IMG/VR virus record: IMGVR_UViG_3300042914_001893
Location: 1-39,695 of that record
From: a virus
Strand: one strand, 5' to 3'
Length of the DNA stretch: 39,695 nt
The position numbers and the translations under genes were made by a program. Position 1 is the stretch's first letter, and each line of letters begins with the position of its first letter. The notes beneath the pieces were generated by a model, which saw nothing but the letters and a program-made list of their open reading frames with translations, did no database searches and was not told where the DNA came from. This document shows positions 11,786-25,178 of this stretch, piece by piece.

Positions 11786-12421
11786 ATGCTATTTATTTTG
11801 TTATCGTTGTTGGTCCAATCGCCCAAAGTCGAGCTACCAGAAAAGCTTAACGCAAAGCCTGGTAGGCTGATTCAAATTACCGCCAAGACTGAACAGAAGG
11901 CGGTAAAATGGTTTTTGGCGTCTTCCGATGCGGATCTGATCGTGATGGAATCGACAAAAACCGCAATTTTTTCGGCGATGATTCCCGGCGATTATCGACT
12001 CATCGCATATACCGCCGCTAGCGACGTTCCTTCTGATCCGTCAATTTGCATCGTGACCGTTGGCAACATTGCGCCAATACCGCCAAACGATCCGCTGGCG
12101 GTTGCGCTAGCAAACATATGGGGCGCACTTCAAGAGCCTGATTCCAAGACCAGCAAGGCCGCTTTGATCGCAACCTATCGAGATGGTGCCGCTTTGGTTG
12201 ATGATCCGAAGATCGTTGATTTTGGGGCATTCCATGCGGCATTGCTGGCCGCTCGACGCAAACGATTGGCCGATGACAAGTTGCTGACGATACGTGAACG
12301 AATATCCGCCGAATGGCAGACGTTGGGCGATGCGCCAGAAACCCTACTGACCAGCGAGATACGCGGCAAAATCCGTAACATCATGGCTAGGGTTGTTTTG
12401 GCACTAGAGAAATTATCATGA
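11786..12421 (+). CDS. Secreted protein with Ig-like opening, planctomycete-like
   Basis: 211 residues; ATG 11786 after AGGAG (11775-11779). The N-terminus is a short signal-like stretch (MLFILLSLLVQSPKVELP), followed by a beta-sandwich segment reading 'PGRLIQITAKTE...VKWFLAS...DYRLIAYTA..DVPSDPSICIVTVG', the pattern of PKD/Ig-like domains in secreted proteins of planctomycetes. The C-terminal half is alpha-helical (about 100-211). Its TGA overlaps the start of the peptidase gene (ATGA), so the two are probably co-translated and may act together at the cell envelope. Function is not established; the taxonomic resemblance is from memory. Confidence 0.6.
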   Translation: MLFILLSLLVQSPKVELPEKLNAKPGRLIQITAKTEQKAVKWFLASSDADLIVMESTKTAIFSAMIPGDYRLIAYTAASDVPSDPSICIVTVGNIAPIPPNDPLAVALANIWGALQEPDSKTSKAALIATYRDGAALVDDPKIVDFGAFHAALLAARRKRLADDKLLTIRERISAEWQTLGDAPETLLTSEIRGKIRNIMARVVLALEKLS

Positions 12422-13287
12422 GTTATATTCCCGGTTGGGTTGACGATCCGGAAGCGGTTGGCGAGGTTGCGATGCTGCAACCTATGCCCATTTTTGGCAT
12501 GACTCCGGCGGGAGGCGTTCCAGAATCCGAATTGCCAGCCGAAGTATTTTTGTGGAAAAACTATGAAAACAAAACCGGCAAGAAATGGCCTAGCCTTAGT
12601 CAGGGATCCATTGGATCATGCGTTGGTTTTGGCACGGTTTGCGCGATTGAAGCGACTCTTGCGGCGCAAAGTAATAGGGTTCCGAATTTGGTGCAAGAAC
12701 AAATATACGGGGGTTCTCGAGTCGAGATTGGCAAAGGCCGCATTAGAAATGGCGATGGATCTGTCGGAGCATGGGCGGCGGAATGCGCGCGACAATATGG
12801 AGTAATCAATCGCGGAATTCATGGTAAATATGATCTAAGCGATTATTCTGTCAAGCTTTGCAAGGAATGGGGTAACACCGGCATACCTGATGATCTTGAG
12901 CCAAAATGCCGGGAACATCTTGTCGGCGCAATTACGTTAGTTCGAGACTGGGCGTCAGCGCGCAAGGCATTGGCCAGCGGTTATGGTATTGCGATATGCA
13001 GTAATCGAGGCTTTAAATCGGCGCGCGACAAAGACGGTTTTGCGGCCGCTAGTGGCGTGTGGAACCATTGCATGGCATTGATCGGGTATCAAACAAAAAG
13101 GCCTGGCGGGTTCATTATGAATTCGTGGGGGCCAGATTATAATAGCGGTCCTGTTGGCGCTGGCGATCCACCTAGCGGCGGCTTTTGGGCTGACGATTCA
13201 ACGATTGACTATATGCTAAGGCAAGGCGATTCTTGGGCGTTTTCCAATGTTTCCGGTTTTCCTTCACGACTCGACTGGAGAATTTGA
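12418..13287 (+). CDS. Papain-like (C1 family) cysteine peptidase
   Basis: 289 residues. The papain active-site block is present as SQGSIGSCVGFG: Q62 for the oxyanion hole and C68 as nucleophile, matching papain's QGSCGSCWAF. The histidine is in GVWNHCMALIGY (H217) and the asparagine in FIMNSWGPD (N235), the standard NSWG block, so the triad is complete. There is no signal peptide and only a short propeptide-like N-terminus (about 55 residues). Located in the block with small membrane proteins and no lysozyme, amidase or transglycosylase in the whole window, it is the best candidate for the lytic enzyme. It could instead process virion proteins or host targets. Confidence 0.85.
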   Translation: MSYIPGWVDDPEAVGEVAMLQPMPIFGMTPAGGVPESELPAEVFLWKNYENKTGKKWPSLSQGSIGSCVGFGTVCAIEATLAAQSNRVPNLVQEQIYGGSRVEIGKGRIRNGDGSVGAWAAECARQYGVINRGIHGKYDLSDYSVKLCKEWGNTGIPDDLEPKCREHLVGAITLVRDWASARKALASGYGIAICSNRGFKSARDKDGFAAASGVWNHCMALIGYQTKRPGGFIMNSWGPDYNSGPVGAGDPPSGGFWADDSTIDYMLRQGDSWAFSNVSGFPSRLDWRI

Positions 13288-13925: not shown

Positions 13926-14070
13926 AACTGTAAACCGCTACCAATTCACGACTTAGAACAATTTTATAAAAATTGGCAAAATACCTCTTGCGTGTTTTGG
14001 CGCAATCGTGCATATTGATCCTGTCGCAACGACGCGACACGATGATAAGAAACGACAAGGGAATACGACA
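13926..14070 (+). promoter_or_regulatory. Intergenic region with two small dyads, probable early leader
   Basis: 145 bases between the HNH gene and the first gene of the early block. It holds an AT-rich perfect hairpin, CAATTTT-ATA-AAAATTG (13959-13975), and a short GC dyad, TGTCGC-AACGAC-GCGACA (14022-14039). There is no convincing sigma70 promoter pair; a weak TTGCGT...CATATT set near 13988-14016 matches poorly. Since the functional class of genes changes here, a promoter or operator is expected, possibly one read by a phage sigma factor. Confidence 0.3.
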
Positions 14071-14319
14071 ATGAGCCGCACAATCACACTGATGGAAGTT
14101 AACGAATACCGCGCACTGGTCAACCGATATTGGGAATCAATGGCGGGACAGGACGACAAAACAATTAAGGCGCGCGTACACAAGGCCGAAGTTGCAACGT
14201 TTGAATCTACTGGTCATCCACTAATGGGACGCCGCCACAACACGGCGGCTAATCGGTTGCTCTGGGCTCATTGTAGCGCAATTGTTGACGCTGCCGAACA
14301 ACGCGGCGTCCGAACCTAA
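14071..14319 (+). CDS. Hypothetical small early protein
   Basis: 82 residues, MSRTITLMEVNEYRALVNRY..., helical, with a basic centre (TIKARVHKAE) and HPLMGRRHNTAANRLLW. ATG 14071 has AAGGGA at 14056-14061; an upstream in-frame ATG at 14008 lacks a ribosome site. It is the first gene of the early region. The last codons (GGC GTC CGA ACC TAA) are also the 5' arm and bulge of stem I of the hammerhead ribozyme that follows, so ribozyme cleavage would occur 45 nt after its stop codon. Function unknown. Confidence 0.6.
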   Translation: MSRTITLMEVNEYRALVNRYWESMAGQDDKTIKARVHKAEVATFESTGHPLMGRRHNTAANRLLWAHCSAIVDAAEQRGVRT

Positions 14320-14372
14320 CCCACTGATGAGCCCCGGGGCGCCGGGGCGAAACCCTACGGGGTCTGGGACGC
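14306..14372 (+). ncRNA. Type I hammerhead ribozyme
   Basis: All core nucleotides are present in order. Stem I 5' strand CCCA (14320-14323); CUGAUGA core (14324-14330); stem II GCCCCGG (14331-14337) with CCGGGGC (14342-14348), loop GGCG; GAAA (14349-14352); stem III CCC (14353-14355) with GGG (14360-14362), loop UACG, closed by the A14352-U14363 pair; cleavage triplet GUC with scission after C14364; stem I 3' strand UGGG (14365-14368). Stem I can continue with GCGU (14306-14309) pairing ACGC (14369-14372), leaving a 10-nt bulge (14310-14319) that could dock on loop II. Helices II and III are closed and I is open, so it is type I. It would cut the mRNA between the genes at 14071 and 14406. The structure is seen directly; activity is inferred. 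Confidence 0.85.
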
Positions 14373-14405
14373 AATTACACGATGATACGATAGGAGATGA
14401 TGGCC

Positions 14406-15152
14406 ATGGTTACTTTGACAATCGATGACGTATTTTCCGCCGGATCTGTCGAGCTTGCGATTGTTTCGTGGGCGCAAAGTGCCGACGGTGTTAACGCTGG
14501 CAACGAACAAAGCGCAGTAGTCGGACTCAATGAAGGCGCGCGTATCTACATTGATAGCGCCGATGGCCGGACGTGCGAACAAATTGGCGCAGAATCAACG
14601 GATCAAAATGCACGTATGGACATTGGCGGATCGTACTACACGATCAGCGATTGGAGCGAATATTCAGTCGTCGAGCTCGAAGTACCGACAATCGATGAGG
14701 CATTGGAGCGGCCAGACCTTGCCCGTAAAATGGCGCGCGCGGCAAAAGCCTGGCATTTTGCTGAAAGCGATTTATCTGGTTGGGCTGAACTTATTGAAGA
14801 GCTCGACGAAATTGAAGGTGCCGCAACAACTCTAAAAGGCTATGGCGATATGTACACTGGCGGTTGCATCGCCGACGCAGCGCATGAATGGCTCGATGCG
14901 GGCATCGAGGATGATGGATCGATCGGATCATGGTGCGATATCGGGTGTTGGAATGCTTCTACGGCGGCGGCGTGGATTGCCGCTGGCCTAACTCCAAATG
15001 ACGTTGAATCGGCCGCTAAATCCATGCAGGAGGAAACCAGCGACGACGATATGCACGCTCGATATTCAGGTGGAATTATTTACGCGTGCTGCAATAATGA
15101 CATTGATTACAAAGACGTAATTAAAATGCACAATAATCTCATGGCCGAATAA
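14406..15152 (+). CDS. Acidic hypothetical early protein
   Basis: 248 residues, strongly acidic (for example LIEELDEIEGAATT, QEETSDDDMHARY). Three in-frame ATGs occur (14397, 14400, 14406); I chose 14406 because AGGAG (14392-14396) is then 9 nt away. The C-terminal half has a recurrent helical unit, 'AAHEWLDAGI' and 'AAAWIAAGLTPNDV', of the kind seen in many phage and plasmid early proteins. The charge suggests a DNA-mimic or anti-host role, but no known anti-restriction signature is visible. It is directly downstream of the ribozyme. Confidence 0.6.
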   Translation: MVTLTIDDVFSAGSVELAIVSWAQSADGVNAGNEQSAVVGLNEGARIYIDSADGRTCEQIGAESTDQNARMDIGGSYYTISDWSEYSVVELEVPTIDEALERPDLARKMARAAKAWHFAESDLSGWAELIEELDEIEGAATTLKGYGDMYTGGCIADAAHEWLDAGIEDDGSIGSWCDIGCWNASTAAAWIAAGLTPNDVESAAKSMQEETSDDDMHARYSGGIIYACCNNDIDYKDVIKMHNNLMAE

Positions 15153-16363: not shown

Positions 16364-16492
16364 ATGTTGCGTATAATTATTGTTGGGGCATGTTTAATGA
16401 CTGGATGCCAGGCTACGCGGGTAGCCGTCACAATTGCGGCTCCAATGAGCCGTCCAACCGATGGTCAGATTAATTTGACCATCACACGATGA
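16364..16492 (+). CDS. 42-residue lipoprotein
   Basis: ATG 16364 with GGAG (16351-16354). The sequence MLRIIIVGACLMTGCQATRV is a short signal peptide with a good lipobox (M-T-G-C, Cys15), followed by about 27 polar residues (PMSRPTDGQINLTITR). It would be lipid-anchored after cleavage. Small phage lipoproteins are usually outer spanins or superinfection-exclusion proteins. The early-gene location and absence of a partner inner spanin favour exclusion, but this is speculative. TGA at 16490-16492. Confidence 0.6.
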   Translation: MLRIIIVGACLMTGCQATRVAVTIAAPMSRPTDGQINLTITR

Positions 16493-16503
16493 GAGGACAT
16501 GAC

Positions 16504-16824
16504 ATGACGACGGACATACCATTCCGTCCGGGCTTGAGAGTACATCGCCGAATTGGGGAAAGTTTTGTTATTTTCGTCAAGGGCAAAGAGGATTTTATTA
16601 CCACGCTAACGCTCAAACATGCGTCCGGCGGAAAGGCCGTGCTCGAGATTAATGAGGGTAATGGACCTGAGATCGAGCATATGCGGATACATGAGGAGAT
16701 CGTATTTGGCGATGGCGAAGACGAGTGCGTGATTGTCCTAGATAGTGCCGCTGGATCTCATGCCAGTTTTCGGGCGCTGGCTGGACCAGCGGTTAGGATT
16801 CGGAGAAATGAGGAAACGAGATGA
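16504..16824 (+). CDS. CsrA-like RNA-binding regulator (divergent)
   Basis: 106 residues from ATG 16504, after AGAGGA (16492-16497). The first 65 residues follow the CsrA strand order: LRVHRRIGESFVIF corresponds to 'L.R..GESI.I', then DFITTLTLKHASGGKAVLEI to 'I.V.VL...GG.VRLGI', then GPEIEHMRIHEEIVFG to 'AP..I.V.REEI'. CsrA homodimers bind GGA motifs at ribosome sites and control translation. Here the arginine of 'HREE' appears replaced (RIHEEI), and about 35 extra residues follow, so RNA binding may differ. It ends in an ATGA overlap with the Sak4 gene. Alternative: an unrelated small beta protein. Confidence 0.45.
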   Translation: MTTDIPFRPGLRVHRRIGESFVIFVKGKEDFITTLTLKHASGGKAVLEINEGNGPEIEHMRIHEEIVFGDGEDECVIVLDSAAGSHASFRALAGPAVRIRRNEETR

Positions 16825-17576
16825 TACCAGGCATAACGAAAGGGAAAGCGGGCAAGCCGCCGCGCGTGCTGATATATGGCACGGAAGGCATTGGTAAAAG
16901 CACTTTTGCCGCTAATTGTCCAGAGCCAATATTCATCCCTACGGAGGATGGTATTGGTGAGATTGATTGTGCGCAGTTTCCGCTTGCAACGTCATACGAT
17001 GACGTTGTTAAAGCACTGAAGCAATTATCCACATTAGATCACGACTACGAAACAGTTGTTATTGATTCGCTCGACTGGCTGGAACGGCTGATTTTCGACA
17101 AGGTCTGCACGGAAAACAATGTCGATAACATCGAAAAAGCTGGCGGCGGATATGGTAAAGGTTACATGCTCGCTGTTACGAAATGGCGGGAGTTGTTAAC
17201 AAATCTTGACGTATTGCGCAACGATCGCAATATGGTCGTAATTTTGCTAGCGCATGCGAAGGTCGAGCGTTTTGAAGATCCGGAGAGTACGCCGTACGAT
17301 AGGTACGCTCCACGGCTGCACAAACACGCTTGCGGCCTTGTATGTGAATGGACCGATGCGGTACTGTTTGCGACTCGACGTATGCGCGTTGAAGTCGATA
17401 ACGGGGCCGGTTTTGGCCGCACCAGGGCGATCGCTCGCTCAATTGGTGCGGATGGCGGGGCACGCATTCTCCGAACTGTCGGAGGGCCAGCGTGCCTAGC
17501 CAAGAATCGATATGGGGTAACGGTAGATCTACCGTTATCGTGGAATGATTTTTGTAACGCAATCACGAAAGGATAG
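16821..17576 (+). CDS. Sak4-like RecA-fold ATPase (recombination)
   Basis: 251 residues. Walker A at IYGTEGIGKSTFA (about 18-30), Walker B as ETVVIDSLDWLERL (about 77-90), and a later strand NMVVILLAHAKVERF (sensor-like), the arrangement of phage AAA_24/Sak4 proteins. Sak4 proteins are RecA-core ATPases that promote single-strand annealing and usually sit next to an SSB-like gene, as here (17580). Start ATG 16821 overlaps the previous stop; GAGG lies at 16810-16813. Expected role: phage DNA recombination and replication restart. Confidence 0.8.
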   Translation: MIPGITKGKAGKPPRVLIYGTEGIGKSTFAANCPEPIFIPTEDGIGEIDCAQFPLATSYDDVVKALKQLSTLDHDYETVVIDSLDWLERLIFDKVCTENNVDNIEKAGGGYGKGYMLAVTKWRELLTNLDVLRNDRNMVVILLAHAKVERFEDPESTPYDRYAPRLHKHACGLVCEWTDAVLFATRRMRVEVDNGAGFGRTRAIARSIGADGGARILRTVGGPACLAKNRYGVTVDLPLSWNDFCNAITKG

Positions 17577-23081: not shown

Positions 23082-25178
23082 ATGATGCTGGAAGCCGCAC
23101 TCCGATACGCCGGTCATGGATACCCTGTTTTTCAATGTGCTCCCAACGGCAAAACCCCGCTAGGCGGTAACGGTCATCTCGACGCGACAACCGATCTTGA
23201 CCTGATAACGGAATGGTGGACCGCAACGCCAAACGCAAACATCGGCATATCGACAACCGGATTGCTGGTCGTTGATATCGATGGAGAAGACAATCCGTGG
23301 CCGGGGTATGGTTGCGATGATCTTGGAGTAGGCGCGGCCGCAAGAACGCCAAATAATGGACGGCATTTTTGGTTCCGCCAGCCCACTGGAGCCGCGTGGC
23401 GATCAACCGCCAGCATGCTTGCACCTCGAGTCGATACCAGGGCCAACGGCGGGTACATTGTTGTTGCGCCATCAAGATTGTCAACCGGGGTATATTCGTG
23501 GGTTGATGACGCAAGCCTATTTGATATGGATTCGTTGCCATTGCCGCCGCAATGGCTCATCACGGCGTTATCTCCCGTCAATCGGCAAGTCGTGCCATCG
23601 ACGCCGGACGGCAACGTCATCATTCAAGGATCACGCAATACCGCACTCGCTCGGATGGCTGGAGTCATGCGCCGCGCGGGCATGACGCAAGCCGGTATCG
23701 AGGCCGCGTTGATGGCGGAAAATCAACGCTGTTCGCCACCACTACCACGGGATGAGGTCGTCCGGATCTGCACCAGTATCAGCCGCTACAACCCTGACGA
23801 TATTGCGGTTGCCATTGTTGAGGATCATTTTAATCAAGACGGCATTGAGATCGAGGACCAGTTCGCTGTTGAAGATCCGGGGCCATGCCCTGAACACCTA
23901 TTGTCGATTCCCGGTTTTGTGGATCGTGTCATGACCCACACAATCGCAACAGCACATTATCCGAATCGAGCCCTAGCATTCGGCGGAGCCATCGCCATTC
24001 AAGCATTGCTTGCTGGCCGCAAGGTTTGCGATCCATACGGAACACGCGTCAATCTATACGTTGTCGCGCTGGCCAATTCCGGAGTAGGCAAGGACCATCC
24101 GCGCAAGATCAATCGGCAAATTATGTCGAAAATTGGTGAAGGCAAATGGGTTGCTGACCTGATCGCATCGATGGAAGGACTCGAGGATCGCCTACACGCC
24201 CAACCATCCATGCTGTTTCAAACGGACGAATTCGACCATTTCCTTTTGCAAATATCAAAAGGTAAGGAAATTCGATACGAACAAATCATGGCAAGCCTGA
24301 TGAGGTTCTTTACCACGGCAAGCAGTACCTATTCCATGCGGGCAAAAGTAGGCATGGATTCGCTCGAGATTGTCCACCCGAATTTGTGTTTGTTCGCAAC
24401 GGCTATCCCGAAGAACTTCTACGAATCGCTCAACGCCAAAGTTATGTCCAATGGCGGGCTATCTAGAATGTTGATTCTTGAGGCCGGAAATAGGGGCCAG
24501 CGGGGTTCAGGTCGTCATGTTGATATCCCAATCGAAATAATCGAAACCGCCGCGTATTGGAAGGCTTTAGGAGGAACGCAAGGCAACCTAGCTAACGAGT
24601 TTCCCGTCCCGCTGGTAGTCTCGATCACGCCGGAAGCAACCGACATAATTAACCAATCTCGAGACTACGCCGACGAACAATATCAAATAGCCGAATCCGC
24701 TCAAGACGATACCCGTATGAGTATATGGTCTCGAGTCGGCGAGAAGGTTCACAAATTAGCATTACTGCACGCATGTTCAGCGGATTATCGCAACCCAATT
24801 ATTGATGTTGCCGCCGCAACATGGTCCACACAATTTGCCGATTACCAAACGCGCAAAATGTTATCCAGCCTATCGAAACATATGGTCGATGGTGAACATG
24901 GCCAGCGGTGCAAAAAGGCCATCGAGATTTTGTTGTCGTGGCAATCCGAACATGGCGATACATTTATGCCGCGTCACGCATTCCTTCGCAAAATGGGCAC
25001 GTTCAAGCCTAAAGAAATTGAAGATGTTCTAGGCACATTGAAGAGCCAGCACAAAATAGAAGACATGCGCAAAGAGGCGGGGCCACGGGGCGGACGTGGT
25101 TTTCGTGGTCTGCGTATCACTCCGCGCCTAACGTCAACCACAACCGCCGTCGAGCCAGCAACGAACGAAAATCAGTAG
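23082..25178 (+). CDS. Primase-polymerase/DUF3987 helicase fusion
   Basis: 698 residues. N-terminal prim-pol domain (about 1-145): YPVFQCAPNGKTPL, LLVVDIDGED (catalytic Asp pair at 65 and 67), GRHFWFRQP (H95), RANGGYIVVAPS. Next a PriCT-type helical domain (about 180-236: GSRNTALARMAGVMRRAGMT, PRDEVVRICTSISRY). The rest is DUF3987-like: ALANSGVGKDHPR (332-341) with the divergent P-loop typical of that family, FQTDEFDHFLL (Walker B-like), and SNGGLSRMLILE. A C-terminal winged-helix-like part follows. It primes and unwinds at the origin, and the iteron-rich region lies immediately downstream. Confidence 0.85.
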   Translation: MMLEAALRYAGHGYPVFQCAPNGKTPLGGNGHLDATTDLDLITEWWTATPNANIGISTTGLLVVDIDGEDNPWPGYGCDDLGVGAAARTPNNGRHFWFRQPTGAAWRSTASMLAPRVDTRANGGYIVVAPSRLSTGVYSWVDDASLFDMDSLPLPPQWLITALSPVNRQVVPSTPDGNVIIQGSRNTALARMAGVMRRAGMTQAGIEAALMAENQRCSPPLPRDEVVRICTSISRYNPDDIAVAIVEDHFNQDGIEIEDQFAVEDPGPCPEHLLSIPGFVDRVMTHTIATAHYPNRALAFGGAIAIQALLAGRKVCDPYGTRVNLYVVALANSGVGKDHPRKINRQIMSKIGEGKWVADLIASMEGLEDRLHAQPSMLFQTDEFDHFLLQISKGKEIRYEQIMASLMRFFTTASSTYSMRAKVGMDSLEIVHPNLCLFATAIPKNFYESLNAKVMSNGGLSRMLILEAGNRGQRGSGRHVDIPIEIIETAAYWKALGGTQGNLANEFPVPLVVSITPEATDIINQSRDYADEQYQIAESAQDDTRMSIWSRVGEKVHKLALLHACSADYRNPIIDVAAATWSTQFADYQTRKMLSSLSKHMVDGEHGQRCKKAIEILLSWQSEHGDTFMPRHAFLRKMGTFKPKEIEDVLGTLKSQHKIEDMRKEAGPRGGRGFRGLRITPRLTSTTTAVEPATNENQ

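Follow-up and report, generated by a model that had tools for sequence, protein, structure and literature searches.

In 2011, Perreault et al. (PMC3088659) described hammerhead ribozymes that flank single genes of phages and proposed a role in mRNA processing for them. Pseudoknots were published there for about 40% of hammerheads, and cleavage in vitro was described for three tandem arrays of hammerheads of the prophage type, and for one of these in E. coli as well. The earlier note on the locus treated here had implied that such a processing site, overlapping a coding end in this phage group, would be new; the 2011 work does not support that suggestion.

The window analysed here is the whole of a 39,695-base virus record, with the hammerhead candidate on its plus strand. 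The virus is apparently a tailed phage, since the matches of its proteins to terminase, portal, Sak4-like, SSB, helicase and primase proteins all point in that direction. The terminase has remote matches only, the best at about 26% identity, and neither DNA searches nor the protein encoded downstream of the candidate led to a close named phage relative. A complete type I hammerhead with all core elements in place occupies 14317-14372 when the stop codon UAA of the upstream gene is included (Table 1). Upon checking the letters, the core proved complete and in the order originally given, i.e., CUGAUGA, a 7-bp stem II, GAA, a UNCG-looped stem III, and GUC. The topology is that of type I: stem I carries the open 5' and 3' ends, and stems II and III are closed by loops. 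The outermost pair of stem III is formed by A15.1 (A14352) and U14363, followed by C14353-C14355 with G14360-G14362, and C14364 at position 17 satisfies the H17 (not G) rule before the predicted cut. The overlap with the coding end that had been proposed does not hold for the ribozyme proper, which begins directly after the stop codon. The window contains a single match to CTGATGAG-N-CGAAAC-N-GTC; in a shuffle control, in which stem pairing was not demanded, this pattern was matched in 2 of 100 shuffled windows.

Table 1 Features of the hammerhead locus in the window
Feature	Position	Strand	Basis or remark
Upstream gene, 82 aa, no known family	14071-14319	+	Ribozyme follows its stop UAA 14317-14319 without a gap
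GCGUCC in the last codons of the upstream gene	14306-14311	+	Possible alternative pairing with GGACGC 14367-14372, which precludes stem I
Whole type I hammerhead, from one strand of stem I to the other	14320-14368	+	Sequence, models, relatives
Stem I, 5' strand CCCA	14320-14323	+	Pairs with UGGG 14365-14368; invariant in the close family
Catalytic core CUGAUGA (C3-A9)	14324-14330	+	Sequence; invariant in 17 relatives
Stem II, 7 bp (14331-14337 with 14342-14348), loop GGCG 14338-14341	14331-14348	+	Three pairs double-changed in relatives
Core G12-A13-A14	14349-14351	+	Invariant in relatives
Stem III and UNCG tetraloop UACG 14356-14359	14352-14363	+	Relatives: UCCG, UUCG
Predicted cleavage site, after C17 (C14364)	14364-14365	+	Follows from the established chemistry of hammerheads
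CGC, predicted to form a pseudoknot with GCG 14339-14341 of loop II	14370-14372	+	Permutation across families
Downstream mRNA leader, Shine-Dalgarno AGGAG 14392-14396	14373-14405	+	Sequence, relatives
Downstream gene, 248 aa from ATG 14406 (open from 14397), no known family	14406-15152	+	Protein searches

The ATG preceded by the AGGAG motif is most likely the start of the downstream gene. Protein family searches with its product found no family, and its AlphaFold model is weak (mean pLDDT of 50.7), with moderate confidence for the C-terminal helical half only. That half is common to a 114-aa protein encoded after the ribozyme in relatives: the 248-aa protein (window 14820-15152) and the 114-aa proteins of L016, L028, and L055 share a C-terminal helical domain with a W-C-x-x-G-x-W motif at about 35% identity. 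To call the flanking genes early, as the earlier note did, is plausible from gene content, with an HNH gene before them and Sak4, SSB, and helicase genes after them. In the gene block preceding the ribozyme, the stretch 12418-13287 gave a weak match to papain-family cysteine proteases (PF00112, 19.2 bits against a cut-off of 20.7). A leader-like repeat, CACGATGATANGA, is located ahead of several genes of the window (14034-14060, 14374-14400, and 16481-16507), and nine sites carry it at two or fewer mismatches against 3.9 expected.

Relatives were collected by protein searches, which led to IMG/VR contigs with the same neighbouring genes, and with a pattern of the core plus the UNCG loop, which was matched in 43 contigs. 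The close-family alignment is free of gaps and holds 17 distinct sequences. Every core base is invariant across them, as are the A15.1-U16.1 pair (14352/14363) and the CCCA/UGGG pairing of stem I. The loss of core positions in close relatives, which the earlier note had named as evidence that would speak against a ribozyme, was not seen in these 17 sequences. Three pairs of stem II are altered on both sides, giving the forms GCCCCGG-GGCG-CCGGGGC and GACCGGC-GGCG-GCCGGUC next to a variant with a G-U pair, and the loop of stem III is UACG, UCCG, or UUCG. Of all cells in the stems of these sequences, 99.7% are paired, against at most 52% in controls with slid partners. The double changes in stem II, the variation of the loop within the UNCG type and the fixed core together reflect selection on the RNA fold and not on the DNA letters.

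A second pattern, in which stem III was freed, added 73 contigs, whereas a control pattern with its parts reversed gave 0 loci in all viral contigs. With all three stems demanded, there were 110 distinct elements with 33 different 4-bp combinations for stem I. A covariance model made from the close family (R1) was used to align 88 elements of the wide family. In this alignment, which is fitted to the structure model, 97.6% of the cells are paired against 74.3% in shuffles, double-change cells number 246 against 67, and all three helices covary. A second model (R2) gave 132 matches in 100 loci, several per contig beyond those found with the patterns; in total, about 130 related elements in phage contigs display covariation in all three stems. 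The covariation that the earlier note had proposed to look for in related phages exists, in stem II among the close relatives and in all three stems in the wide family. The sole match in the genome collection was in a Gemmataceae MAG. Within the window itself, a second copy on the minus strand near 23500 (14.3 bits with R1) was rejected: it is located inside the primase gene, has lost core C3 and is not matched by R2.

Up to nine elements occur at successive gene junctions of one contig. In this contig (L074:2280-8615), the nine hammerheads share a strand and are spread over about 6 kb; the majority separate one small gene directly from the next, and several are followed by AGGAGG and a start codon.

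Judged on the window and its relatives, the element at 14317-14372 is a genuine type I hammerhead and not a chance resemblance, and the original claim of such a ribozyme between two genes, with a predicted cut after 14364, has strong support from covariation, from conservation, and from the very large size of the family. Comparison with Rfam, which the earlier note had proposed as a test, gave a different picture. No family reached its gathering threshold anywhere in the window, which by the criterion of that note would formally refute the hammerhead. At a permissive E-value, the best sub-threshold matches were to RF00008 (type III; 22.5 bits versus 48.5) and RF03152 (RAGATH-1; 17.9 bits versus 56.3), both far below gathering, and RF00008, which represents the type III permutation, aligns stem I of the window wrongly. 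As a test, however, the comparison fails: in 50 related contigs (about 439 kb) with covarying type I elements, Rfam 15 at gathering reported no hammerheads, the hits being one pistol and two twister-P5 ribozymes. Because the thresholds also miss these covarying relatives, the absent hit reflects a gap in the database and is no refutation, and Rfam was rejected as an arbiter. In practice, a whole branch of hammerheads is overlooked at the gathering thresholds, which amounts to systematic under-annotation.

The earlier note had drawn stem I as an extended helix with a possible bulge, an arrangement resembling that of the Schistosoma hammerhead, and had placed the 5' arm of this helix in the last codons of the upstream gene. 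The letters for this are present (GCGUC/GACGC, 14306-14310 with 14368-14372), but over the 17 relatives only 57.4% of the cells of a second helix beyond the 4-bp stem I are paired. The pairing of GCGU with ACGC depends on the identity of the upstream gene. In the permutation test on long-loop elements given below, 100 of 2000 permutations equalled the score of the extended stem. Being unconserved, the extended stem I was rejected as a part of the ribozyme. In all 17 close relatives, by contrast, loop II GCG can pair with the CGC of the 3' flank; this pairing is 100% complete and invariant, and since its bases never vary there, the close family gives the pseudoknot no independent support. Among 40 distinct elements with a long loop II, complementarity between the loop and the 3' flank summed to 140 versus 112.7 (sd 4.5) in permutations, none of 2000 being as high, and the pairings include UGGU/ACCA, UGGC/GCCA, UGGAU/AUCCA, and UGGUUA/UAACCA. 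This short pseudoknot probably docks stem II onto stem I.

The position of the elements relative to genes follows a strict rule. Among 78 unambiguous upstream ORFs, which were called by a simple length rule instead of a gene finder so that single placements may be wrong, the stop codon overlaps stem I or the core in 37 cases, is located 6 nt or less upstream in 35 and further away in 6, which makes 72 of 78 with an overlapping or adjoining stop. Some upstream genes use the UGA of CUGAUGA as their stop. Counting all elements, a clear stop is found at -20 to +3 in 66%, against 4.3% of random positions. The distance from the cleavage site to the next start codon has a median of 28 nt and is 60 nt or less in 99 of 109 cases. 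The genes upstream of the elements form 79 clusters and those downstream 82. Ribozymes of other classes with unrelated folds, pistol (RF02679, in L072) and twister-P5 (RF02684, in L122 and L065), take the same position between stop and start in related contigs as the hammerhead of the window; in L072:532-596 (-), L122:649-703 (+), and L065:1199-1253 (-), the upstream stop is located at or in the ribozyme. This placement makes mRNA punctuation directly testable, because the stop is found at the ribozyme and the start about 28 nt after the cut, the neighbours are unrelated and other ribozyme classes occupy the same spot. The strict placement of ribozyme to stop codon was not found stated in the available sections of PMC3088659; the comparison covers open-access literature, and the rule may be known elsewhere.

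The surroundings of the ribozyme differ between phages. Five contigs of about 40 kb (L019, L036, L038, L040, and L046) carry one copy each of nearly the same ribozyme next to other neighbours, and the C-terminal part of their terminase is about 61% identical to that of the window. In L010:1660-2030, an extra gene is located between a copy of TAACCCACT, which follows the 82-aa gene, and an intact ribozyme that itself starts with TAACCCACT; the arrangement resembles the junction of a gene cassette or the trace of a second ribozyme since lost. The downstream gene of the window (88-89% identity) is present with its RBS leader in L006:2970-3010 without a ribozyme and next to unrelated upstream DNA, from which it follows that this gene does not need the ribozyme everywhere.

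Structure, covariation, conservation, and position are best explained, with a good degree of probability, by co-transcriptional hammerhead punctuation of phage mRNA. Hammerheads leave a 2',3'-cyclic phosphate and a 5'-hydroxyl upon cleavage. The element would be transcribed within a polycistronic phage mRNA, and the predicted cut would separate the messages of the two flanking genes. Just past its stop codon, the upstream message would retain two GC-rich hairpins and the 2',3'-cyclic phosphate; the downstream message would carry a 5'-hydroxyl and a leader of about 41 nt ahead of its start codon. The former would acquire a hairpin-capped 3' end in this way, and the 5'-hydroxyl of the latter would be poorly recognised by nucleases that need a 5' monophosphate. 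The likely gain would be that each of the two genes is expressed, and its message decays, independently of the other.

A refinement that is compatible with mRNA punctuation would make cleavage depend on translation of the upstream gene, with the terminating ribosome either covering the stop codon together with the adjoining stem I and core, or holding the codons of a competing helix. The 72 of 78 clear cases in which the stop lies within or next to the ribozyme fit such gating, although the compactness of phage genomes alone could give this close abutment. In the window, a helix of GCGUCC with GGACGC is predicted to displace stem I, which suggests a dependence on the terminating ribosome. In ViennaRNA predictions for window RNA with the upstream codons, in which the pseudoknot was not counted, a fold devoid of stem I is favoured at -33.9 versus -26.6 kcal/mol, with a pair probability of stem I of about 0.001, while RNA starting at the stop codon is predicted to fold as a hammerhead (stem I pairs of about 0.77-0.99). 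As the predicted fold with upstream codons prefers the structure without stem I, activity of the window ribozyme may be low unless the upstream stretch is occupied. The competing helix was, however, computed without the pseudoknot or co-transcriptional folding and is not conserved outside the window-type upstream gene, and gating is put forward here tentatively, with the balance of probability against it. The same reserve applies to the broader proposal that a large and mostly unannotated set of phages uses ribozymes fused to stop codons, either hammerheads or, interchangeably, pistol and twister, as junction punctuation with cleavage gated by the terminating ribosome.

Of the readings that compete with mRNA punctuation, one takes the element for a real hammerhead that serves as a portable junction, the shared letters of which aid the swapping of gene cassettes by recombination while cleavage is secondary. 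The extra gene in L010, the nearly identical ribozymes with the same leader ahead of different genes, the same core amid unrelated neighbours in the second phage group with the 61% identical terminase part, and L006, where only RBS leader and gene are shared, would all fit. Pure homology needs neither compensatory changes in stems II and I nor invariance of exactly the catalytic core, and pistol and twister-P5 ribozymes occupy the same position without sequence similarity; this makes the reading unlikely, somewhat more so than gating. A role of the hairpins limited to attenuating transcription or to forming a barrier at the 3' end or against decay, devoid of catalysis, is highly improbable: the stop codon is followed directly by a pair of GC-rich hairpins, of which one is capped by a stable UNCG tetraloop, but there is no U-run and no terminator-like site at the locus on the plus strand, and a plain barrier does not need the invariant single-stranded CUGAUGA and GAA. 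Chance resemblance to a hammerhead, for which the Rfam thresholds that were not reached and the matches in shuffled windows could be cited, has a negligible probability and is effectively refuted by the compensatory changes, combined with an intact core, in 17 distinct relatives; the reversed pattern, without a match in any viral contig, argues against it as well.

Among cultured phages, R2 matched Flavobacterium phage vB_FspP_elemoA_7-9A (37.1 bits) and Pelagibacter phage Jormungand EXVC012P (25.8 bits). Both belong to a short-loop class lacking loop II of the window, and in the latter GUA replaces GUC. A composite long-loop query found nothing in cultured phages, and Pelagibacter phage HTVC019P, a BLAST lead, was discarded as it gave no model match. 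The element of the Flavobacterium phage, at positions 17280-17359 of its record on the minus strand, offers a possible test system. A small antisense hypothetical gene deposited over it (L130:3967-4074) is probably a spurious call. In Jormungand (L132:2986-3068), the GUA hammerhead-like element shares bases with the end of a small annotated gene, and about 1.3 kb upstream of the element lie genes with an annotation as ArdA anti-restriction proteins; the occurrence of hammerheads close to ardA is known from earlier work (PMC3088659).

The pseudoknotted type I hammerheads of Perreault et al. (2011) have the same core, the same permutation and the same pseudoknot from the loop to the other shoulder as the window element, and they too are located between phage genes of changing identity. 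The present branch differs in that it is found in uncultured viral contigs, has a pseudoknot of 3 bp only and includes a close family with a constant UNCG-capped stem III. In conclusion, the element of the window is of a known kind, to which are added here a new branch, a corrected model of stem I, a quantified rule of placement, and the recognition of a gap in the Rfam database.
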